Source: a virus
DNA length: 28,681 nucleotides
Direction: 5' to 3' (one strand)
Virus record (IMG/VR): IMGVR_UViG_3300044953_000652
Location: 1 to 28,681 of that record
The notes below the pieces were generated by a model. It searched no databases. It saw only the letters and a list, made by a program, of their open reading frames with translations, and was not told where the DNA came from. The position numbers were made by a program, and so were the translations under genes. This document shows positions 1-24,306 of the stretch, piece after piece (positions within the stretch are counted from its first letter, which is position 1; each line of letters begins with the position of its first letter).

Positions 1-56
1 CTCTCTAATAGCTTCTTGAGGTCGTTCAACAGAGTGAAATGGTCCAGCCTAGTCAT
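1..56 (-). CDS. 5' end of a gene cut by the window edge
   Basis: An open frame starts at an ATG on the minus strand at position 56 and runs off the left edge. It reads MTRLDHFTLLNDLKKLLER, with a leucine/lysine-rich, helix-prone composition. The ATG overlaps the TAG stop of the upstream 53-aa gene by 8 nt (ATGACTAG), the same translational-coupling geometry used elsewhere in this window. Only 18 complete codons are visible, so no function can be given. Confidence 0.45.
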   Translation of the reverse strand, partial: MTRLDHFTLLNDLKKLLE

Positions 57-210
57 TGTCCTCCCTGTGATTTCGTAGATTGGACGCAAAATGCCTGCCG
101 AAGGCCTTGGTGTCTCGCACACCCGGAAGGGTGCCTTTCTGGCGGCCACCTATGTTGCGGTGTATCCTGCGTGGTCTCTTGTTGGTGGTGTTCTTCCTGA
201 AGTTCTTCAT
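49..210 (-). CDS. 53-aa highly basic protein, unknown
   Basis: Small Arg/Lys/His-rich protein (MKNFRKNTTNKRPRR...). I start it at the ATG at 210, which overlaps the TGA of the upstream membrane protein as ATGA. A longer reading back to 381 lies inside that upstream gene and is not needed. The central part (about residues 20-38) is rich in Gly, Arg and Lys, as in nucleic-acid-binding tails, but no fold is recognised. It lies between a two-TM protein and another small gene, probably in one operon. Confidence 0.5.
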   Translation of the reverse strand: MKNFRKNTTNKRPRRIHRNIGGRQKGTLPGVRDTKAFGRHFASNLRNHREDND

Positions 211-494
211 TCGTGCTCTCCCCCCTTCCCCCTGCCGTTGTAGCCGTCGATCCTCTGGTCCAATTTCTTCCTCGTGAAGATTATGCCGCCTATGATCAGG
301 GCGTGGGCGATGACGCTGGTGGTCACATTGACTCCGAAGGCTATGAACTCCGCCGTGATGAGTGCGAATATGAAAGCCCACATGGTGGCGAGGATCATCA
401 GTATCTGGAACCTGGTAATCTTGGGCAATCCGCCCGTGAAGGCCTGGTCCTCATCAAACAGTTCCGGCAACATGTATTTTATTACTTTGTACAT
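207..494 (-). CDS. 95-aa two-helix membrane protein
   Basis: The protein has a short acidic N-terminal part (residues 9-20), then hydrophobic helices at about 30-52 and 57-73, and a basic, Gly-rich tail (74-95). This suggests a small inner-membrane protein with both ends on the same side. An AGAGG-type ribosome binding site lies just upstream of the ATG. The stop overlaps the next start (ATGA). Size and topology would fit a holin-like or envelope-modifying phage protein, but no family motif is visible, and a better holin candidate lies at 13262-13666. Confidence 0.65.
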   Translation of the reverse strand: MYKVIKYMLPELFDEDQAFTGGLPKITRFQILMILATMWAFIFALITAEFIAFGVNVTTSVIAHALIIGGIIFTRKKLDQRIDGYNGRGKGGEHE

Positions 495-502
495 ATTTTC
501 CT

Positions 503-691
503 CTATTTAAACCATCGTTTAAATTTATCTATGCTGTTTTGCAAAGGAGCATAGACTTTTTCTATGAATTCAATGTGTTGCGTCAGTCTCGCATCCAAGG
601 CATCTAATTTTTGATTGATCAGTTGCATTTCTTTGAGTAATAATTTTCTGTTTTCGGACATTTCTTTTTTGATCATTTCAAGTTCACTCAC
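503..691 (-). CDS. 62-aa coiled-coil protein
   Basis: The protein is almost entirely amphipathic helix, with heptad-like spacing of Leu, Ile and Met through about residue 45 and a basic, aromatic C-terminus (KFKRWFK). It has no cysteine and no signal peptide. The ATG overlaps the stop of the DNA ligase gene by 4 nt (ATGA), so it is probably translated by coupling to ligase. An oligomerisation or adaptor role is possible but cannot be shown. Confidence 0.6.
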   Translation of the reverse strand: MSELEMIKKEMSENRKLLLKEMQLINQKLDALDARLTQHIEFIEKVYAPLQNSIDKFKRWFK

Positions 692-2022
692 AGTTTTTCT
701 CCCTTTGTGAATCCTCTAAACTTCATAAATCTTGGAAAACGCAGTGAATATTCATTCACAGCATCTTGATTCTGTGTGATAGCGTCTGCTCTCACTTCAA
801 TCACTTGTCCGATCAATGAGTCCTTGTCCTTCCAAAACTCATCTCTTTCCTCATCAGTCAGTCCCGAACCTACATTAGATTTGATCAGTTTGTTGTCATC
901 CATGCCTTCCACAATGAATGCTCCCAATTTGCCCGCATTCTTGCCTGTGCCTTCTTCCACAGACTTCACAGTCAAACTCACTTCAATGAATGGTTTCAGT
1001 TTCAACCAAGCATGACTTCTTTTGCATTCATATGGAGCATCCACATCTTTGATCATGATGCCTTCATATCCACCTTCTACTGCCCTCTTATTAACCTCTG
1101 AGTAAGTTTTCTGACCTTCTGCTGTGTCCAAGTCCACGATTTCATGTGCCAGCACTGTGACGGCGTTTAAATTGGTTTTGTGCTGGTCATACCAAGCCTT
1201 TACCATTGCAGTTCTGTCCGACTGCTTCTTGTCCCAATGACCTTCCATAAAATTAGATAATGGTAAAAAATCAAATAAATGCAACACAGCATCCAAAGCA
1301 CCTGCGGACTCTTTACGATGCACCTGTTTCATTAGATCTTGAAAGTTTTCACTCATCACTTCACCATCCAATACCAATGGATAAGGCGGAGGTGCTTTTT
1401 TAACCACTTGTGATATCTGTTCTGAGATGTGTCCAAAGTTGGTAAACTCCTTGCCATTACGACTAAACATGTCCACTTTGCCATCTGGATACACAATCGT
1501 GATCACTCTCACGCCATCCAATTTGACTTCCAGCATTTTCTTACCCACCAGCTTCCTCTCGTGATTGGCGCTGTCATGTGCCAATTGGCAAGTAAACACT
1601 GGCACCTCATATTGCTTGAATTTGTTCTTGGTGGCCACGCTGTTCACGGTCTTTTCACTCACTCCACATCTTAGATCTTTGATCAGTATTCTTCTGTAAA
1701 AACCATTCCATTGTTCTGCTGTGGCTGAACTCATCACAAGATTAATAGCATCACGAGCCGCGTGACCTGTGAGTTCTCTACGATGCAGTTGTTCTGCCAA
1801 TTGTTTGAATATTTTCCATTCACAGCCTTGACCTGGTATAACAGTGTCTTTTTCAGGCACTTGCTTCACGCCAAATGTGTACAGTTTGTCCAAACACATA
1901 CGCACACCTTCAAAGAATTCATCTAGGCCTTCTTTCATGGCTGACAACAGAATGGCCTCTTTGGCCAATCTGCTGTTGGTTGCTTCCAATTTATCGATTA
2001 CTTCCTGTGGTTGAGTTCTCAT
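688..2022 (-). CDS. ATP-dependent DNA ligase (T4 gp30-like)
   Basis: Seals nicks in duplex DNA with ATP, joining Okazaki fragments and repairing phage DNA. The nucleotidyltransferase motifs are in order. Motif I is KLDGVR with the adenylated lysine K167 (residues 167-172). Motif III is around SRNGKEFTNFG (187-197). Motif IIIa is LVLDGEV (216-222). Motif IV is EGIMIKD (320-326). Motif V is WLKLKP (339-344). A C-terminal OB domain (about 346-444) ends near SLRFPRFMKFR. The 444-aa length is a little below that of T4 gp30. A GGAGG site precedes the ATG. The gene follows the AAA+ ATPase by 10 nt and is probably cotranscribed from the promoter at 3074-3102. Confidence 0.95.
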   Translation of the reverse strand: MRTQPQEVIDKLEATNSRLAKEAILLSAMKEGLDEFFEGVRMCLDKLYTFGVKQVPEKDTVIPGQGCEWKIFKQLAEQLHRRELTGHAARDAINLVMSSATAEQWNGFYRRILIKDLRCGVSEKTVNSVATKNKFKQYEVPVFTCQLAHDSANHERKLVGKKMLEVKLDGVRVITIVYPDGKVDMFSRNGKEFTNFGHISEQISQVVKKAPPPYPLVLDGEVMSENFQDLMKQVHRKESAGALDAVLHLFDFLPLSNFMEGHWDKKQSDRTAMVKAWYDQHKTNLNAVTVLAHEIVDLDTAEGQKTYSEVNKRAVEGGYEGIMIKDVDAPYECKRSHAWLKLKPFIEVSLTVKSVEEGTGKNAGKLGAFIVEGMDDNKLIKSNVGSGLTDEERDEFWKDKDSLIGQVIEVRADAITQNQDAVNEYSLRFPRFMKFRGFTKGEKL

Positions 2023-2032
2023 CTTGCCTCCA

Positions 2033-3037
2033 TTATCTAGGTTTCAGTATGGTATGGATGGCGATCTCCTCCCATTTGTCCGGAAATGCCTTGGCCAGAT
2101 CTGCCACCTTTAGCACAGTTCTAAGACTGATCTCTCTCAATCTGCGTTGATGCTCCACCACAAACTCCACTATCTGATCCTCAGTTCCAGGAGTCAGCTC
2201 ATATTCTTTCAACATGCCATCTGTGACGATCTGTCTGATCCTCAATATCTTTTCTCTGATGGTGTCTATCGTTAGATCGATGTAGTGGCTTCTGGATTCC
2301 AATGCCTGCAAATGATCTCTCAACTTCTTGCTCTTGACACTGTCGAATTTGATGTTGGTGATGAATATGGCCGAACCTTTGAATTCAAAACTGTTGGGCA
2401 CACCTTCATCTACCAGTCTATATGCCTCTGTGTTCCAGCAGATCCTTCTGGTCCTTTTGGAATCCAATGCTGCCTTCAATATGTTCAGTGATAGATCTTC
2501 CAACAGTACGCTGTCGCAATCGTCAAACACCAACACATTGTCCTTCTCTTTGAAATGATACAATTTACAATACAGCCCTAGAGCACTCATAGCACCTTTC
2601 ACCACTTCATACTTGGGTTTGGTATCTCCCAGTGTGGCCAAGATGTCATGTTTCTGTAGCACTGCTTCTACACCAAATGATTTGCCCACGCCTGGAGGTC
2701 CTGACACAATCATTGCCCTCACGTCACCTCTCTTGCAGGCCTTGGTCATGTCGCTCAATATGTCGAATCTTCTTCTTAATCTATCCACCACTTGCTCATC
2801 TGACTCTTCTTTGGGAGCCTCTGGCGCTTTGTCTCTCAATTGAGACTCGGAATCCAACGACACTCTGATCTCTCTATTTGTGGCTCCTGGAAATTCTTTG
2901 ATGTCTTCCACCTTGACTGTGACGAAGCCACCTTCTTTGTGTGGATATGGATGATATGGTTTCACAAGTTCAAACACCTGATTTTCAATTTTTTTATTTC
3001 TGTAACTGCCTTCTAGAACGTATATCTGCCTTTTCAT
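2033..3037 (-). CDS. AAA+ ATPase
   Basis: A 334-aa P-loop ATPase. Walker A is GPPGVGKS (113-120). Walker B is VLVFDDCD (168-175). A sensor-1-like AIFITN (223-228) is followed by an Arg near 249 (LESRSHY) that could be the arginine finger. A helical lid-like C-terminal part follows (about 260-334). The N-terminal 80 residues form a separate domain with an acidic linker. AAA proteins of this kind occur near replication genes in marine T4-like phages, and its place directly upstream of DNA ligase supports a DNA-metabolism role. Whether it acts as a clamp-loader, helicase-loader or remodelling factor cannot be decided from the sequence. Confidence 0.85.
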   Translation of the reverse strand: MKRQIYVLEGSYRNKKIENQVFELVKPYHPYPHKEGGFVTVKVEDIKEFPGATNREIRVSLDSESQLRDKAPEAPKEESDEQVVDRLRRRFDILSDMTKACKRGDVRAMIVSGPPGVGKSFGVEAVLQKHDILATLGDTKPKYEVVKGAMSALGLYCKLYHFKEKDNVLVFDDCDSVLLEDLSLNILKAALDSKRTRRICWNTEAYRLVDEGVPNSFEFKGSAIFITNIKFDSVKSKKLRDHLQALESRSHYIDLTIDTIREKILRIRQIVTDGMLKEYELTPGTEDQIVEFVVEHQRRLREISLRTVLKVADLAKAFPDKWEEIAIHTILKPR

Positions 3038-6442: not shown

Positions 6443-7138
6443 TTATCGTATTTTTGGAAATAATGCGTCAGTGCAGAACAATTCCACGTCTGCTTCTGCC
6501 AAGCCCAAACTTTTCATCACTCTGGGTGTGTGCGGATTCTGTTGTTGGTTGTGGCAGTAATAATTCTGTGCTTCTATGGTGTCTGCTTCCTTGGCAGTGT
6601 GAGCATATTGTCCTATGCTGTCAAAATACACTTTTAAGTTGTTAACTGCAAGATTCACTATGGCTGTGGCTTCCTCATCGGTTTGCACATTGCCTGCGGC
6701 AATCATGCTGCCAGAAAATATGTTCAGTGCCCATTCAGGCAATTTTCTTCTCTTAGTGGGCACGAAATCTGCCACTGCCTGCTGATACCATTCTATCAGA
6801 GGATGTTTTTCTCCACCCGAACTGCGTGAAAAGTCATGAAATGCGCCGGTCATTTTGTGTTCTCCCGCGATCACATCAAATCCATAGATAGGACCATTGT
6901 TGTGCAGATGCGGAAATACACACACATGCATCATCCAGAGTCCTTTGGATTGTCTAGCATCCACCACATCTATATGACAACGACGACAGTGTTCGGTCTG
7001 CCACACTCTGTTGATCCAACCATTTTCAGGTTGATTGAATCTGCTCATGCCAGGTTCTTCAATCTCTTTGCCTCTTGAATTGAATTCAGTGATGATATTA
7101 TCCTTGCATTCTATAAGGATGTTCCAGATATTGCTCAT
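6443..7138 (-). CDS. pcyX: Ferredoxin-dependent bilin reductase, PcyX-like
   Basis: A 231-aa protein of the FDBR family (PcyA/PebS/PcyX). The core reads HVCVFP (71-76), then GPIYGFDVIAGE (82-93) and AFHDFS (99-104). H71 and D88 are 17 residues apart, the same spacing as the catalytic His88/Asp105 pair of PcyA, so I assign them by that match. PcyX, described from uncultured oceanic virus sequences, reduces biliverdin IX-alpha to phycoerythrobilin with reduced ferredoxin. The neighbour heme oxygenase (7315-7845) would make the biliverdin. No ferredoxin is seen here, so electrons would come from the host. PcyX rather than PebS is favoured by the non-cyanobacterial context, but only a phylogeny could settle it. 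Confidence 0.85.
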   Translation of the reverse strand: MSNIWNILIECKDNIITEFNSRGKEIEEPGMSRFNQPENGWINRVWQTEHCRRCHIDVVDARQSKGLWMMHVCVFPHLHNNGPIYGFDVIAGEHKMTGAFHDFSRSSGGEKHPLIEWYQQAVADFVPTKRRKLPEWALNIFSGSMIAAGNVQTDEEATAIVNLAVNNLKVYFDSIGQYAHTAKEADTIEAQNYYCHNQQQNPHTPRVMKSLGLAEADVELFCTDALFPKIR

Positions 7139-8197: not shown

Positions 8198-8644
8198 TTA
8201 ACGGATTTCGATGGTTCTAAGTTTTTTAGATTCAGGCACTATTTTTTCCAGTGATATGGTCAAAAGACCATCCTTAAGCTCGGCGCCTTTGATCTCAATA
8301 TCATCAGCGATGGCAAACGATCTTTCAAAATATCTGCTGGCTATGCCTTTGTGTAGTATCTCACCATTGTCGTCTTTTGATTCTGTGGTCTCCAATCTTT
8401 TGGATTTCACAGTCAATTGACCTTCTTCCACAGTCACTTCAATGTCTTTCTTGTTGTAACCTGCAAGCGCCAATTCAATATTGAACTGATTTCTGCCAGT
8501 TTTTACTATATTGTATGGCGGATAGTTCACAGCAGGAGCCATTATATCTCCTTCAAACATTCTTTCAAAATGATCGAAGAAGTTATCAAAGCCCACTGTA
8601 ACGGGTCTCAGTTGATTAAAGATACTTAGTGCTCTATTATTCAT
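8198..8644 (-). CDS. Small heat-shock protein Hsp20 (IbpA-like)
   Basis: A 148-aa protein with an alpha-crystallin domain from about residue 43 to 135, including YNIVKTGRNQFNIELALAGY, the DIEVTVEEGQLTV strand pair and the conserved GLLTISLEKIVPE end. An IbpA-like N-terminal segment (NQLRPVTVGFDNFFDHFERMF) is present. Hsp20 holds unfolding proteins for refolding. Hsp20 genes are common in T4-like marine phages. It has an AAGGAG site, a 75-nt leader with two hairpins and a strong sigma70-type promoter, so it is probably transcribed alone and early. Confidence 0.95.
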   Translation of the reverse strand: MNNRALSIFNQLRPVTVGFDNFFDHFERMFEGDIMAPAVNYPPYNIVKTGRNQFNIELALAGYNKKDIEVTVEEGQLTVKSKRLETTESKDDNGEILHKGIASRYFERSFAIADDIEIKGAELKDGLLTISLEKIVPESKKLRTIEIR

Positions 8645-8767: not shown

Positions 8768-9361
8768 TTATTTTTGTAAATTAAATTCCGTATTAAAACT
8801 CATAGATATGCGTGGCTGTTCGGATTGGTTGCTGTGCACAAAATGTTTCAGCCAGCTGGGAAATATCAGCAGCATGCCTGAGACCGGATGGTAGGTGGCC
8901 TTGTGGCTGGTGAATTGAGTGTATCGATCTAGATTGTTTGGTATGTAATACTGTGCTTCATCGCTCCTGTGAAATTCAATACTGCCCATGTTCTCATCTG
9001 GTATGTCTATGTAGTACACACCACTCAGCACACTGTGCTGATGGTTGTGCAGTGTGTTGTAGGATCCCTTGGGGTTCACGTTGAACCAAAAATTACAGAT
9101 GCGCAGTGGTGGAAGACTGCCTTGACGAGCACAGTCATTAACCATGGTGTTCAATGTCCTAATCAGATGCTCAACTTGTATGGGCCTGCTGGTGTCCAGC
9201 AAATAATCTTCGCTCTGCCAACCCAGTTGATTGGTGGCTGTTTTGCCTTTGTGTTTTTCTTTGGTCTCCAATATGTGTGCTCTAATGGCAGCATTGTCCA
9301 CTGAAGTCAGTGTGTCCTTCCAGACAATCTGTGGAAACCACAGGTCAGCTCTCATGGGCAT
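8768..9361 (-). CDS. 2OG-Fe(II) oxygenase family protein
   Basis: A 197-aa double-stranded beta-helix dioxygenase. The key strand reads LHNHQHSVLSGVYYID (104-119), with candidate iron ligands H105, H107 or H109. A second block, LLIFPSWLKHFVHSN (164-178), gives the distal ligand H173. RISMSFN (184-190) supplies R184 for 2-oxoglutarate. This matches the putative 2OG-Fe(II) oxygenase family found in many T4-like marine phages. Substrate unknown, with protein or nucleotide hydroxylation possible. An AAGGA site precedes the ATG, 3 nt after the upstream stop. Confidence 0.85.
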   Translation of the reverse strand: MPMRADLWFPQIVWKDTLTSVDNAAIRAHILETKEKHKGKTATNQLGWQSEDYLLDTSRPIQVEHLIRTLNTMVNDCARQGSLPPLRICNFWFNVNPKGSYNTLHNHQHSVLSGVYYIDIPDENMGSIEFHRSDEAQYYIPNNLDRYTQFTSHKATYHPVSGMLLIFPSWLKHFVHSNQSEQPRISMSFNTEFNLQK

Positions 9362-14560: not shown

Positions 14561-15244
14561 CTAATCTTTGAAATCTTTTAAATTATCTTCAATAATTTGT
14601 TTGATACCTTCGCGGTAGTTGGGGTTAGTGGCCCACTTGTCCAGCTTGTCCACTATCTTATTCACATTAGGCTCCTTATTGCTCATCTGACGATGTCTTT
14701 CAAATCTAAATTGCTTGTGCACCTCTTTGGTGTTGAGAATGTTCATCATGTCCTGCACCGAGGCACATTTGGTTCTGTATTTTTTAAGTCCCCATTTGGC
14801 ATTCAATTGGTAGTATGCTTTCATCTGAGGTTCATTAGGATCCCAAGTTCTAATACCAAACAGATTGTTGCCTTCTATGGCAAATCTACTGCTGCCATTG
14901 TCACTCTCCATCATTGCCATGGAAATAATGATAACTTTGGGTATGTGCTGATCTTTGGGCAGTCCAAATTCCACATAGTCTATGCACTTGCTCACTGCAG
15001 CAATGAATGTGGTTTGATTGTAATAGTTCATGCTGGGTTCGGCCAAACCCAAGCTCTTGGCCGTCTTGCGTAGTTCTTCTATGGGGCCTGTGGTGATTTG
15101 TTTCTGAACATTATCATTTGGATACCAAGTGCCTATATAGAAGCTTATCAGCATCAGAACTGCGATGAACATTTCTTTTCTGAACCATTTACACCATCGC
15201 CAAAACATGTGTAACCAATTTTTGACTCTTGTTCTAAAAATCAT
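14561..15244 (-). CDS. Membrane-anchored glucosaminidase endolysin (Bax/FlgJ-like)
   Basis: A 227-aa protein. A basic, Trp-rich N-terminus is followed by one TM helix (about 26-42, FIAVLMLISFYIGTW), an N-in anchor or signal-arrest type. The catalytic domain (about 75-220) has the glucosaminidase pattern with catalytic-type E113 (MAMMESDNGSSRFA) and GNNLFGIR (125-132), as in Bax and FlgJ-type N-acetylglucosaminidases. It should cleave peptidoglycan glycan strands at lysis. It is unusual in being read opposite to the holin and from a sigma70-type promoter rather than a late motif. The ATG is 8 nt after the -10 box, nearly leaderless. Confidence 0.85.
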   Translation of the reverse strand: MIFRTRVKNWLHMFWRWCKWFRKEMFIAVLMLISFYIGTWYPNDNVQKQITTGPIEELRKTAKSLGLAEPSMNYYNQTTFIAAVSKCIDYVEFGLPKDQHIPKVIIISMAMMESDNGSSRFAIEGNNLFGIRTWDPNEPQMKAYYQLNAKWGLKKYRTKCASVQDMMNILNTKEVHKQFRFERHRQMSNKEPNVNKIVDKLDKWATNPNYREGIKQIIEDNLKDFKD

Positions 15245-15252
15245 AAAATTTA

Positions 15253-15281
15253 ATATTAAACTATTAGTTATCTGTTGTCAA
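15253..15281 (-). promoter_or_regulatory. sigma70-type promoter for endolysin
   Basis: Minus-strand TTGACA (15276-15281), 17 nt, TAATAT (15253-15258), 8 nt to the ATG at 15244. Confidence 0.7.
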
Positions 15282-15324
15282 GACTCAAAGAATTGTTATT
15301 TTGTGCGGATTTAGAATTGAATTT

Positions 15325-15350
15325 AGTGGTGGGAGTCGCCTCCCACCACT
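15325..15350 (-). terminator. Strong hairpin at 3' end of tmRNA gene
   Basis: A perfect 11-bp stem, AGTGGTGGGAG-GCGA-CTCCCACCACT, with a GNRA loop on the minus strand. It is followed by AAATTCAATTC, not a clean U-tract. It may end transcription or mark the 3' boundary of the precursor for trimming. Confidence 0.6.
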
Positions 15351-15649
15351 GATCACGTTCTGTTGCCAAGTGTGATCACTCTCCGAAGTAGCAGGTTTTT
15401 AGGCTGCCACCAATTCCGAGCCAACTAAAAAGTTAGCAGGAATTGTCACTTCTGATACGAAACGCTTGTTAGCATTTGTATTGTTGAGCCTTTACAGAGC
15501 CCTCACTGGTAAACTCCACGTTTCTTTACGCAATCGTCGATTCTATTTCCACCCCTCATATTTTATTGATTAGATAGAATAAGAATGGTGGAGTGGCAGG
15601 GTACCGCCCCCTGGTCCGCATTGTTTATTTCAAACGTATCATCGCCTAC
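15351..15649 (-). ncRNA. ssrA: Circularly permuted (two-piece) tmRNA
   Basis: Order on the minus strand: acceptor piece, intervening loop, coding piece. The acceptor piece (about 15649-15586) ends in the T-arm (stem CAGGG/CCCTG, 15597-15601 with 15609-15613), then CCACTCC and encoded ACCA. A 30-nt AU-rich spacer (15585-15556) follows, and then the coding piece starts GGGGTGG at 15555. GGGGTGG pairs with CCACTCC over 7 bp with G3-U70, the alanine identity element. The GAATCGACG segment and CGGAC before the T-arm match tmRNA consensus. The tag frame (15473-15399) starts at GCT and reads ANKRFVSEV...GSELVAA, 24 codons, then TAA. It rescues stalled ribosomes and tags their products. The T-loop (GGCGGTA) is atypical. 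No phage SmpB is seen in this window. Confidence 0.9.
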
Positions 15650-15655
15650 ATCAGT

Positions 15656-15684
15656 ATTTAAACACATTCTGTGGTGATTGTCAA
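15656..15684 (-). promoter_or_regulatory. sigma70-type promoter for tmRNA
   Basis: Minus-strand TTGACA (15679-15684), 17 nt, TTAAAT (15656-15661). The predicted start at about 15649 fits the 5' end of the acceptor piece. Confidence 0.65.
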
Positions 15685-15731
15685 CAGATGATTAAATTGT
15701 GCCACAGATGGATTTTGGATCTATGTCGGGA

Positions 15732-15935
15732 TTATATCAGTCTGAGATTGCCAGCTGCGGTTCTACCACGAGATTCAATCAATTCATAGCTGATTGCTTG
15801 ACCTTCCGTGATGGTCTCCAACTGGGCACTTCTTAGAGCAGATGCGTGTACGAACACATCCTTGTTGCCATCGTCTGGAGTAATAAAACCGTAACCTTTA
15901 GCGGCGTTGTACCACTTAACTTTACCTTGATTCAT
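15732..15935 (-). CDS. Cold-shock protein (CspA-like)
   Basis: A 67-aa single cold-shock domain. RNP1 is KGYGFITP (13-20) and RNP2 is VFVHAS (27-32), with the usual GKVKWYN start and the G-x-A-x-NLRLI end. It binds single-stranded RNA or DNA and melts RNA structure. It sits between the 58-aa gene and the tmRNA gene. A CATAAATA late-type motif (15967-15974) gives a 26-nt leader. Together with bS21 and the tmRNA it suggests phage control of translation. It could instead assist phage DNA or RNA handling. Confidence 0.95.
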   Translation of the reverse strand: MNQGKVKWYNAAKGYGFITPDDGNKDVFVHASALRSAQLETITEGQAISYELIESRGRTAAGNLRLI

Positions 15936-19102: not shown

Positions 19103-21448
19103 TCAGATTGCACAGGCATCACAGTCGATAGTATCGTTGGATACGATCCTTATTTTAGCATCTGTGTCGGACAATGTCAAGTCCTCCGATCCATCTTTGT
19201 TATCAATGGGATATATGCCGGAGGGCTGTAGATCTTCCTCATCTCCCTTGAAGTCGTAGGTGTTCTGATAGTATGAGGTCTTCCAACCATATTTGTAGGC
19301 ATTCAACATGTCGCCCGCCATCACACTCAGCGGCACTTCATTGTTGTCATAATTCAATGGATTGTAACTCCAGTTGCCTGATATGGCCTGATCAAAATAT
19401 TTCTGCATCACGGCCACGATCTTGATGTATCCATCATTGTTGGGCATGTCCCAAAGCAATGTGTATGCATTTTTTAATTTTGGAAATCCTGGTATCACCT
19501 GTTTGAGTGGACCCTTTTTGCTTTTCTTTATGCTGAGCAGTGCTCGGGGTGGCTCTATGCCGTTGGTAGCATTAGAAACCACTGAAGAACTTTCGCTTGG
19601 CATCTGTGCTGACAGTGTGCTGTGTCGCAATCCATGCTGTTTGATGTCCTTCCTCAAAGTTTCCCAGGCCATTCTGGCTTTGTGCGGCACGATCTCATCC
19701 ACTTCTTTCTTGTAGGTGTCTATGGGCAACAGTCCATCTGCGTATTTGGTCCGATTGAATGCTGCACAGGCACCTCGTTCCTGAGCCAATTGACAGCTGG
19801 CTTTCAATAGATAGAATTGAAATGCTTCGGTGAGCTTGTCCACCATTTCCCAGGCTGCTTTGTGATGATATTTGACATCCATGCGTGCGAGATAGTGTGC
19901 CAGTCCAATATAGCCTATGCCCAATGAGCGTCTACCCTTGGTGGATAACTCTGCGGCCTTCACAGGATACTGTTGATAGTCTATGATTTCTTCCAATGCT
20001 CTCACTGCTAGATCACACAGTGGTTCCAATTCATCCAAATCATTGATTATGCCCACGTTGATGGCACTTAATATGCACAAGGCTATTTCGCCCTTGTCAT
20101 CATCGATGTGTTGTATGGGAGTGGTGGGCAGTGTGATCTCTTGACACAGATTGCTCATGGAGACCTTGTCTTTGAACGATGAATGACTGTTCACGTGATC
20201 TATGTTCATTATGTAGATCCTGCCGGTCTCGGCTCGTTCTTTCAATAGATCAAAAAATAATTCTTGAGCACCAACAGTTTTTTTAGGAATCTTCTTGTCT
20301 GCTTCATATTTAAGATAGAGATCATCAAATGCGTCCGTGCCAAATGCATTATACAGTCCAGGTACTTCATGCGGAGAAAACAGGGTGATGTGTTCGTCGT
20401 TGATGAATCTCTCATAGAACAGTTTGGATATCTGTATGGAGTAATCCATCCTCCTCACTCGATTGTCTTCGGTGCCCTTGTTATTTTTTAGAACCAAAAT
20501 GTCTTCGATCTCGGAATGCCATACGGGGAAATGCACGGTGGCATTGCCGCCTCTAACACCATTCTGCGTGCAGCATCTCACTGTGCTCTCGAACTTCTTG
20601 AGGAATGGAATCACTCCGGTGTGTTGTACCTCACCTCCTCTAATCTTTGAATTGATGCCCCTAATGCGACCAGCGTTGATGCCAATGCCCGCGCGCCTAG
20701 CCACATAGTAGCCGATGGCCATGTCGCTGCTGAATATGGAAGTAAGCGTATCGTCGGAATCCACCAGCACACAGCTGGCAAACTGACGTATGGGAGTTCG
20801 CACACCAGCCATCACCGGAGTGGGGATATTGATCTTGTGTGTGGAGATAGCGTCGTAATATCTTTTCACATAGCCCATCCTTTTCTTTTCGGGATAATTC
20901 ATGAACAGCGTGGCCGCTATCATCATGTACATGTCCTGCGGAGTCTCGTACAGTGTGCCAGATGATCGATCCTGCACCAGATATTTGTCCACGATCTGTC
21001 TCAGTCCCGCATAGGTGAATTCCAGATCCCTGTCACGGCGTATCCAGGTATTGAGTTTCTTGATTTCTGTCTTGTTGTATTTGTTCAATATGGTCTTGTC
21101 ATACACTCCCAGACGCACGTTCCTTACGATCAGTTTTTGCAGATGCAGATATTCATAATCGCCGTGGGCCTGTTTGCGCAGATCATATAGCAGCAATCTC
21201 GCCGCCGCGTATTGGTAGTTGGGATTTTCCAATGTGATCAGGTCGTTGGCAGATTTTATCAAGACATTCTGTATGTCTCTGCTGCTGATGCCGTCATAGA
21301 ACTGTATGTTGGCTTTCATTTCTATCTGTGACGCCGACACACCAGATAGACCTTCGCAGGCCTCCTCGACCACGAAGTGCATCTTGTTGATATCCAGAGG
21401 TTCCAATCCTCCTGTGCGCTTCCTTACCTTTATGTTGGATGAATTCAT
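19103..21448 (-). CDS. nrdA: Ribonucleotide reductase class Ia, alpha subunit
   Basis: A 781-aa catalytic subunit. An ATP-cone domain (about 5-95) gives overall activity control. Active-site residues: C226 (FASC), C435 and E437 (NLCQE), C458 (ALCILSAINVG). The radical-transfer tyrosine pair is in GWKTSYYQNTY near the C-terminus, and the C-terminal redox pair is CDAC (776-779), reduced by the nearby glutaredoxin. All residues needed for activity are present. The late-like GATAAATA at 21486-21493 gives a leader of about 30 nt. Confidence 0.97.
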   Translation of the reverse strand: MNSSNIKVRKRTGGLEPLDINKMHFVVEEACEGLSGVSASQIEMKANIQFYDGISSRDIQNVLIKSANDLITLENPNYQYAAARLLLYDLRKQAHGDYEYLHLQKLIVRNVRLGVYDKTILNKYNKTEIKKLNTWIRRDRDLEFTYAGLRQIVDKYLVQDRSSGTLYETPQDMYMMIAATLFMNYPEKKRMGYVKRYYDAISTHKINIPTPVMAGVRTPIRQFASCVLVDSDDTLTSIFSSDMAIGYYVARRAGIGINAGRIRGINSKIRGGEVQHTGVIPFLKKFESTVRCCTQNGVRGGNATVHFPVWHSEIEDILVLKNNKGTEDNRVRRMDYSIQISKLFYERFINDEHITLFSPHEVPGLYNAFGTDAFDDLYLKYEADKKIPKKTVGAQELFFDLLKERAETGRIYIMNIDHVNSHSSFKDKVSMSNLCQEITLPTTPIQHIDDDKGEIALCILSAINVGIINDLDELEPLCDLAVRALEEIIDYQQYPVKAAELSTKGRRSLGIGYIGLAHYLARMDVKYHHKAAWEMVDKLTEAFQFYLLKASCQLAQERGACAAFNRTKYADGLLPIDTYKKEVDEIVPHKARMAWETLRKDIKQHGLRHSTLSAQMPSESSSVVSNATNGIEPPRALLSIKKSKKGPLKQVIPGFPKLKNAYTLLWDMPNNDGYIKIVAVMQKYFDQAISGNWSYNPLNYDNNEVPLSVMAGDMLNAYKYGWKTSYYQNTYDFKGDEEDLQPSGIYPIDNKDGSEDLTLSDTDAKIRIVSNDTIDCDACAI

Positions 21449-23610: not shown

Positions 23611-24306
23611 TTATGCGGTGTGGTTAGCCTGTTTCTTGAAGTATTGTTCCACACGATCCCACCACTGATCTGCATATTTGGAATATTCCGCAGCGGTGAT
23701 GTCAAATTGCTGGTATGTCATGTCGCGGCTGCACATGAACACATGGCCTTCCTTGATGTGAGTGCCATAGACCTTGTTGTGTGCCTCGGCGTAGGCAGCC
23801 AGCTGCAGAAAGTAATCATTGATCCATTCTTTTTTCTTGGGTTTGTTGCTCTGCTTGAAATCTATGATGCAGGGCGCACCCTTATATATGCCCACACAAT
23901 CAGTGGTGCCCGCATAGACCTGAGGATAGTATAGACTGACTTCCGAACCCCATATTTCGTCCACATGGATCAAGGCGTTCCTGCCCACGATCTGGGCCAT
24001 CTCGTGTGCTTGTTGTGAAAATGGATTTGAACCGGGTGTGCCCCAGCTGCCATGTTCAATGTATTCTTCCAAATATTTGTGCATGCGAGTGCCAATGCCG
24101 CTGGCTTCACGGGTGATGATGTTGGCCTGTTCTTCGCCAACCTTGCGGCGCCACTCCATCAGATGTGATTTGTCCTTGGTGCTGTCCAGTATGGTGGTGA
24201 CTGATGGCAGGGATTCGCCATTGGGACAACTGTATAATCTTTTGCCGTCAATCAACACTCTCTTTAAATTCTCGTATTGATATCGTGGTTTCAGCAGTGC
24301 CATCAT
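23611..24306 (-). CDS. PD-(D/E)XK nuclease
   Basis: A 231-aa protein with RecB/Cas4-like nuclease motifs: GTRMHKYLEEYI (72-83, with H76), E122, D136 in the GTTDCVGI strand, DFK (149-151) and Q168 in YFLQLAAYA. These give the metal-binding D136-D149-K151 core and the RecB-type QLxxY helix. A role in DNA recombination or processing of phage or host DNA is expected. The start is ATGATG (24306 or 24303), 5 nt after the NfuA-like stop, so it is cotranscribed with it. No Fe-S cysteine cluster is seen, so the link to the Fe-S gene is not explained by the nuclease itself. Confidence 0.85.
   Translation of the reverse strand: MMALLKPRYQYENLKRVLIDGKRLYSCPNGESLPSVTTILDSTKDKSHLMEWRRKVGEEQANIITREASGIGTRMHKYLEEYIEHGSWGTPGSNPFSQQAHEMAQIVGRNALIHVDEIWGSEVSLYYPQVYAGTTDCVGIYKGAPCIIDFKQSNKPKKKEWINDYFLQLAAYAEAHNKVYGTHIKEGHVFMCSRDMTYQQFDITAAEYSKYADQWWDRVEQYFKKQANHTA

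Follow-up and report, generated by a model that had tools for sequence, protein, structure and literature searches.

The window, a 28.7-kb viral contig of 28,681 bases analysed at its full length, carries a complete, phage-encoded gene for a tmRNA that is circularly permuted (two-piece) and belongs to the alphaproteobacterial type. Scanning the whole window, ARAGORN identified one permuted tmRNA (tmRNA*) at 15308–15681 on the minus strand. Two Rfam covariance models were matched over their full length and above their curated cut-offs, namely alpha_tmRNA (RF01849) at 15348–15700 (106.1 bits, E = 2.7e-28, model positions 1–355, cut-off 50) and tmRNA_permuted (RF04321) at 15399–15646 (96.3 bits, E = 9e-18, model positions 1–213, cut-off 47). 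A first-pass annotation had described a phage-encoded, circularly permuted tmRNA that seemed complete, and had proposed permuted-mode ARAGORN and covariance-model searches as checks; the ARAGORN call and both models bear it out, the full-length matches speak for completeness, and the strand, on which that annotation was silent, is minus. Besides the permuted tmRNA, ARAGORN and Rfam revealed no further tRNA, tmRNA or Rfam family in the window. The covariance-model scores, together with covariation in relatives, exclude a chance origin.

The gene is housed in the gap between a cold-shock protein gene and an endolysin gene (15245–15731), which measures 487 nt and agrees with the earlier estimate of about 480 nt free of protein genes. 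Its parts and neighbours, in the direction of transcription, are the following:

15732–15935, minus strand: cold-shock protein gene, 67 aa, upstream neighbour (PHROG 729, E = 6.8e-20)
15656–15684, minus strand: promoter-like TTGACA-N17-TTAAAT (zero-mismatch pattern match and presence in relatives)
15586–15649, minus strand: acceptor piece (Rfam alignments, pairing and covariation; 5′ end estimated from pairing)
15556–15585, minus strand: 30-nt intervening segment between the pieces (Rfam alignment and family alignment)
15351–15555, minus strand: coding piece (Rfam alpha_tmRNA and family alignment; 3′ end provisional)
15399–15473, minus strand: tag frame, 24 codons plus TAA, encoding ANKRFVSEVTIPANFLVGSELVAA and stop (ARAGORN)
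15325–15350, minus strand: strong hairpin, 11 pairs with a 4-nt loop and no U-run (fold and alignment)
15281–15253, minus strand: promoter-like site of the endolysin gene (standard promoter scan)
14561–15244, minus strand: endolysin gene, downstream neighbour (PHROGs 3513 and 18032)

The acceptor piece comprises the 5′ strand of the long helix, the T-arm, the 3′ strand of the acceptor stem and the encoded CCA (15588–15586). It is followed by the intervening segment and then, from 15555, by the coding piece, which holds the 5′ strand of the acceptor stem, the 3′ strand of the long helix, a PK1-like region, the tag frame and the conserved GGCAACAGAA motif. This is the order of the permuted type, and the rechecked coordinates are as the first-pass annotation had described them, from the two-piece layout with CCA and 30-nt spacer to the tag frame of 24 codons and TAA (15473–15399). 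The same applies to the 7-bp acceptor stem, formed by 15596–15590 and 15555–15549, with G3 at 15553 and U70 at 15592. The folding energy of the tmRNA stretch lies 4.3 standard deviations below that of 100 shuffles. Where pseudoknots would be expected beside the tag, only nested helices were predicted, and in the PK1 region a single sequence of the 10 has a change on both sides of one pair. The hairpin at 15325–15350 is nearly invariant and has no U-run behind it in the 14 family members; a terminator scan reported no terminator there, and the structure could possibly mark the transcript end or protect the 3′ end.

The tmRNA had also been credited with its own promoter. The sequence at 15684–15656 is one of three zero-mismatch matches in the window to TTGACA-N17-TWWAAT, a pattern of our own choosing, and the same hexamers and spacing are found in all 14 family members. 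Against a promoter, the site is absent from the list of the standard promoter scan, which accepts only second hexamers whose second letter is A, and TTAAAT shares only four of six letters with TATAAT. Across the members the hexamers are conserved while the intervening 17 nt vary, which supports, but does not prove, a role as the tmRNA’s own promoter.

A tblastn search with the endolysin protein identified 12 related viral contigs, and a degenerate tag pattern searched in viral contigs identified 13, the same 12 and L028. Together with the window, these 13 relatives form a family of 14 members. All 13 relatives have the tmRNA gene at the equivalent position, with the cold-shock gene on its upstream side, as in the window, and the endolysin on its downstream side (endolysin: 12 by tblastn; L028, where it is a cut N-terminus, by BLASTP, 56% over 57 aa). 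Both Rfam models pass in all ten relatives scanned (L008, L013 and L028 fell outside the scan), with RF01849 scores of 61–71 bits in relatives with another T-arm. ARAGORN detects a tmRNA in 5 of 12 relatives, and its seven misses are probably due to their different T-arm. The viral location of the gene is apparent from the phage genes that flank it, including those for the endolysin, ribonucleotide reductase and head maturation protease. A search of annotated-phage DNA returned no tmRNA relative, and four records matched only part of the far end of the query, over the cold-shock gene. The 3′ motif is carried by 73 viral stretches, 12 of them family members otherwise examined; among 60 of the remaining 61 (L086 left out), ARAGORN called a permuted tmRNA in 7 and was negative on L028, a family member, so some genes are missed. 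L028 is itself a mosaic (1–900, minus strand): its tmRNA belongs to the L060 type, but from there as far as the beginning of the endolysin the sequence follows the L034 type, which suggests recombination between these phages directly after the tmRNA.

Covariation was scored on an alignment of the 10 distinct sequences among the 14 members (A1), which leaves out L042, L064 and L076, identical to L034, and L084, a cut copy of the L034 type. The scored structure has 30 pairs, comprising the long helix in three parts, the T-stem and the acceptor stem. Across the 10 sequences 97.3% of cells are paired, a measure that is favoured because the structure was itself obtained by consensus folding of A1, and both-side changes occur in 18 of 30 pairs, against a shuffled mean of 4.6. 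None of 500 shuffles reaches any of five measures, although for related sequences such counts are not probabilities, and pairing falls to 34–50% when partners are slid by 1–3 columns. By element, both-side changes affect 13 of 19 pairs in the long helix, 3 of 4 in the T-stem and 2 of 7 in the acceptor stem. Compensatory changes in the acceptor stem in related phages, whose absence the first-pass annotation had named as a refutation, are present; five of the seven pairs are invariant and the two that change do so only in the window’s row, compared with the nine others. By itself, the acceptor stem is modest evidence, and the long helix and T-stem carry the weight. All seven acceptor pairs are formed in 10 of 10 sequences, with G-U at the third pair (G3-U70) in every one. 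This strong covariation in the tRNA-like domain indicates lasting selection.

The T-arm differs from that of the window in eight of the nine other aligned rows. In seven relatives (L027, L028, L039, L060, L065, L071 and L082) both the T-arm and the long helix are quite unlike those of the window and L034 in sequence, yet they form the same helices, and the coding part is nearly invariant; either module replacement or fast divergence may account for this. L079 (4486–4823) has yet another tRNA-like domain, the third version, whose long helix and T-arm differ once more. The window-type domain has matches in 153 of 385 alphaproteobacterial genomes, and the L060-type domain in 0 of the 385 in a search run without a positive control.

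The tag frame has 24 codons in all 14 members, with four distinct peptides encoded by six distinct DNAs. Every tag begins with Ala and ends in VAA, MAA or LAA before the stop, that of the window ending in ValAlaAla. The changed share of sites is higher for synonymous than for non-synonymous sites in 15 of 15 pairwise comparisons (0.11–0.34 versus 0–0.12; 0.33 versus 0.09 for the window and L027), which are non-independent comparisons among six DNAs with few independent changes. In raw counts against L034, non-synonymous changes outnumber synonymous ones (6.5 versus 4.5 for the window and L034). These substitution patterns suggest that selection acts to some extent on the peptide that the frame encodes. 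Among bacterial genes, tags of 9–15 aa were found in 60 of 71 distinct genes and tags of 23–30 aa in 11 of 71, in a non-random sample in which 79 of 89 loci gave an ARAGORN tmRNA. The degenerate tag pattern was present in 0 of 385 alphaproteobacterial genomes, among which there was no positive control. At its start the tag DNA shows no variation among the 14 members, and a hairpin forms there around the resume codon (z = −4.07). We dropped this hairpin as a special feature, as 42-nt fold energies there are unexceptional among 90 tmRNA loci: the window gives −8.1 and L034 −7.1 kcal/mol, and the 12 lowest printed energies (≤ −8.3 kcal/mol, some repeats of one gene) are all bacterial.

To place the gene among other tmRNAs, we built a midpoint-rooted tree of 87 sequences with local supports, including 7 of the 14 family members. 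These seven make up a single clade with a long branch (local support 1.0), within a group of 22 (support 0.98) whose other sequences come from records titled Pelagibacteraceae, Fonsibacter or only alphaproteobacterium. This grouping with SAR11-type tmRNAs, apart from the nine other phage tmRNAs sampled, is to be read with the length of the family branch and with a bias in the bacterial sample, partly chosen by exact match to the window’s T-arm. Five sequences with Fonsibacter-like tmRNAs are adjacent to the family at a support of only 0.58. Genes that point to a host disagree, the tmRNA pointing to the SAR11-type group and other genes elsewhere. The endolysin points to pelagiphages; NrdA is nearest to that of Pelagibacter phage Mosig (70.7%) and also resembles those of cyanophages. 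For the T4 nrdC.10-like protein the nearest relatives are in PA5oct-type Pseudomonas phages (47.8% over 76%). The exonuclease is nearest to that of phage DSL-LC04 (46.8%) and also points to PA5oct-type phages, and the ligase resembles those of Lysinibacillus phages and other phages of Gram-positive bacteria (30–33%).

From established tmRNA biology, we infer how the gene would function and benefit the phage during infection. The RNA would be transcribed from its own promoter, and host tRNA-processing enzymes would excise the 30-nt segment. Of the two resulting pieces, the acceptor piece would end in CCA, and the acceptor stem and the long helix would hold it to the coding piece. Host alanyl-tRNA synthetase would charge it through G3-U70 and, with host SmpB, it would rescue ribosomes stalled on broken messages, which are expected to be plentiful in lytic infection. 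The phage-specific tag of 24 residues, with its VAA, MAA or LAA end, should then be recognised by host proteases of the ClpXP type. A phage RNA working with host SmpB, host alanyl-tRNA synthetase and host proteases is the likely arrangement. SmpB (PF01668) was found in none of 8 phage records, consisting of six contigs that may be fragments and two complete phages, in a search that detected it in 10 of 14 control genomes; because of this absence, the gene does not fall into the class of self-contained trans-translation systems and SmpB is presumed to come from the host. That the gene has remained intact over long divergence, as seen in its covariation and kept tag frame, suggests that these phages gain from a ribosome-rescue RNA of their own.

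The absence of SmpB from the phage records would also suit a decoy, that is, a phage RNA that consumes SmpB or alanine charging and so inhibits host trans-translation, with no rescue of ribosomes. The tmRNA of mycobacteriophage DS6A, which is domain-only, has been suggested to act in this way, and two articles relate that a molecule resembling its tRNA-like domain strongly inhibits tmRNA, perhaps by titrating SmpB (PMC4131195, PMC11915505). A decoy, however, has no need of the complete tag frame, stop and protease-type C-terminus that all 14 members keep, and we consider it improbable here. Still less credible is a gene without phage function, whether a captured host tmRNA, a copy that an integration event left at its attachment site, or an error of assembly. 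This reading would draw on the frequent use of tmRNA genes as sites by integrating elements, noted in PMC9004378 and PMC11915505, and on a 22-nt identity between the T-arm DNA of the window and 56 bacterial stretches, 47 of them permuted tmRNAs according to ARAGORN. Against it stand the completeness of the gene, its constant place in the relatives, the single, fully supported clade that the seven members in the tree form on its long branch, the lasting selection indicated by covariation, and the lack of any integrase family match among the 30 window proteins scanned (E 0.001).

A working tmRNA might instead serve mainly in the early phase of infection, by tagging host proteins for destruction or by recycling amino acids. 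In PMC9004378 this is proposed for OM43 phage Melnitz from an early promoter, and a sigma-70-like site precedes the window gene too; tagging, however, needs stalled ribosomes, and selectivity for host proteins would be left unexplained, so that this use is unlikely, if less so than a decoy. A complete tmRNA that rescues ribosomes is the reading we retain as by far the most likely. We give a comparably low chance to an extension of it, in which the rewritten tag would confer a phage-specific fate on its products and the tRNA-like domain would have been repeatedly remodelled. If this were true, a 24-residue tag without the host-like AND/ANE start could evade host adaptors or alter the speed of degradation, and the remodelling would perhaps adapt the domain to hosts that differ in SmpB or synthetase.

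One-piece tmRNA genes are carried by the Bxz1 group of mycobacteriophages, by Wildcat and by Bacillus phage G. Phage-encoded tmRNA is described for these and for DS6A in PMC4131195; according to that article, DS6A has little beyond the tRNA-like domain, unlike the complete gene of the window. According to PMC11915505, the tmRNA database has 79 unique sequences from bacteriophages, all forms included. A two-piece tmRNA has been described in phage Melnitz, and in the same work 402 of 18,146 phage genomes yielded 133 unique tmRNA structures, 53 of them two-piece, of which 50 came from marine or aquatic samples (PMC9004378). With 53 two-piece forms among 133, the first-pass annotation had overstated the rarity of such genes in viruses. 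Phages with a two-piece tmRNA are thus already published and the window is a further member, which adds one more lineage of uncultured phages to those with a permuted tmRNA. Among the matches listed, which mostly did not cover subscription journals, no publication was found that treats this lineage or describes long tags in phages.

Compared with bacterial permuted tmRNAs of Alphaproteobacteria, the window gene is alike in its order, acceptor stem with G3-U70, CCA, T-arm, long helix and GGCAACAGAA motif, and differs in being carried by a phage, in its 24-codon tag and, relative to the models of that type, in the stem that encloses its 3′ motif. With Melnitz, Mosig and HTVC008M it shares a permuted tmRNA gene in large phages of aquatic bacteria, Melnitz being compared by its published description only. 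In Pelagibacter phage Mosig the gene is annotated as SsrA and passes both Rfam models; in Pelagibacter phage HTVC008M we located a permuted tmRNA at 8933–9274 of L144. Their tags (GEDNFALAA and ANFNEYALAA, respectively) are short, in contrast to the 24 codons of the window family, and both lie on a separate branch of the tree. The Mosig gene also adjoins a late-transcription accessory gene, whereas the neighbours in the window family are different. In the stretch of KC465899.1 that we fetched, the HTVC008M tmRNA is unannotated and annotated hypothetical proteins overlap both its ends.

A parallel in tag length is found in Holosporales-type bacterial tmRNAs, which are likewise permuted and have tags of 23–30 aa, three of them of 24 aa; these tags are mostly rich in Arg, Lys and Asn, unlike the phage tag, and the two groups are far apart in the tree. 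Six of the 11 long-tag genes (L091, L093, L096, L097, L100, L104, L109, L117, L118, L124 and L136) are from records titled Holosporales, the rest from records titled only alphaproteobacterium or proteobacterium. What the lineage adds is a tag that is long, conserved and phage-specific, together with a tRNA-like domain that diverges fast. With a long tag whose pattern occurs in 0 of 385 alphaproteobacterial genomes, it becomes testable whether phages alter the fate of tagged proteins.

Elsewhere in the window, mosaic relationships are seen at 2033–3037, 19103–21448 and 23611–24306 (the nrdC.10-like, NrdA and exonuclease genes). Members of the ferredoxin-oxidoreductase-like, Hsp20 and 2OG-Fe(II) oxygenase families are encoded at 6443–7138, 8198–8644 and 8768–9361, and are possible auxiliary genes.
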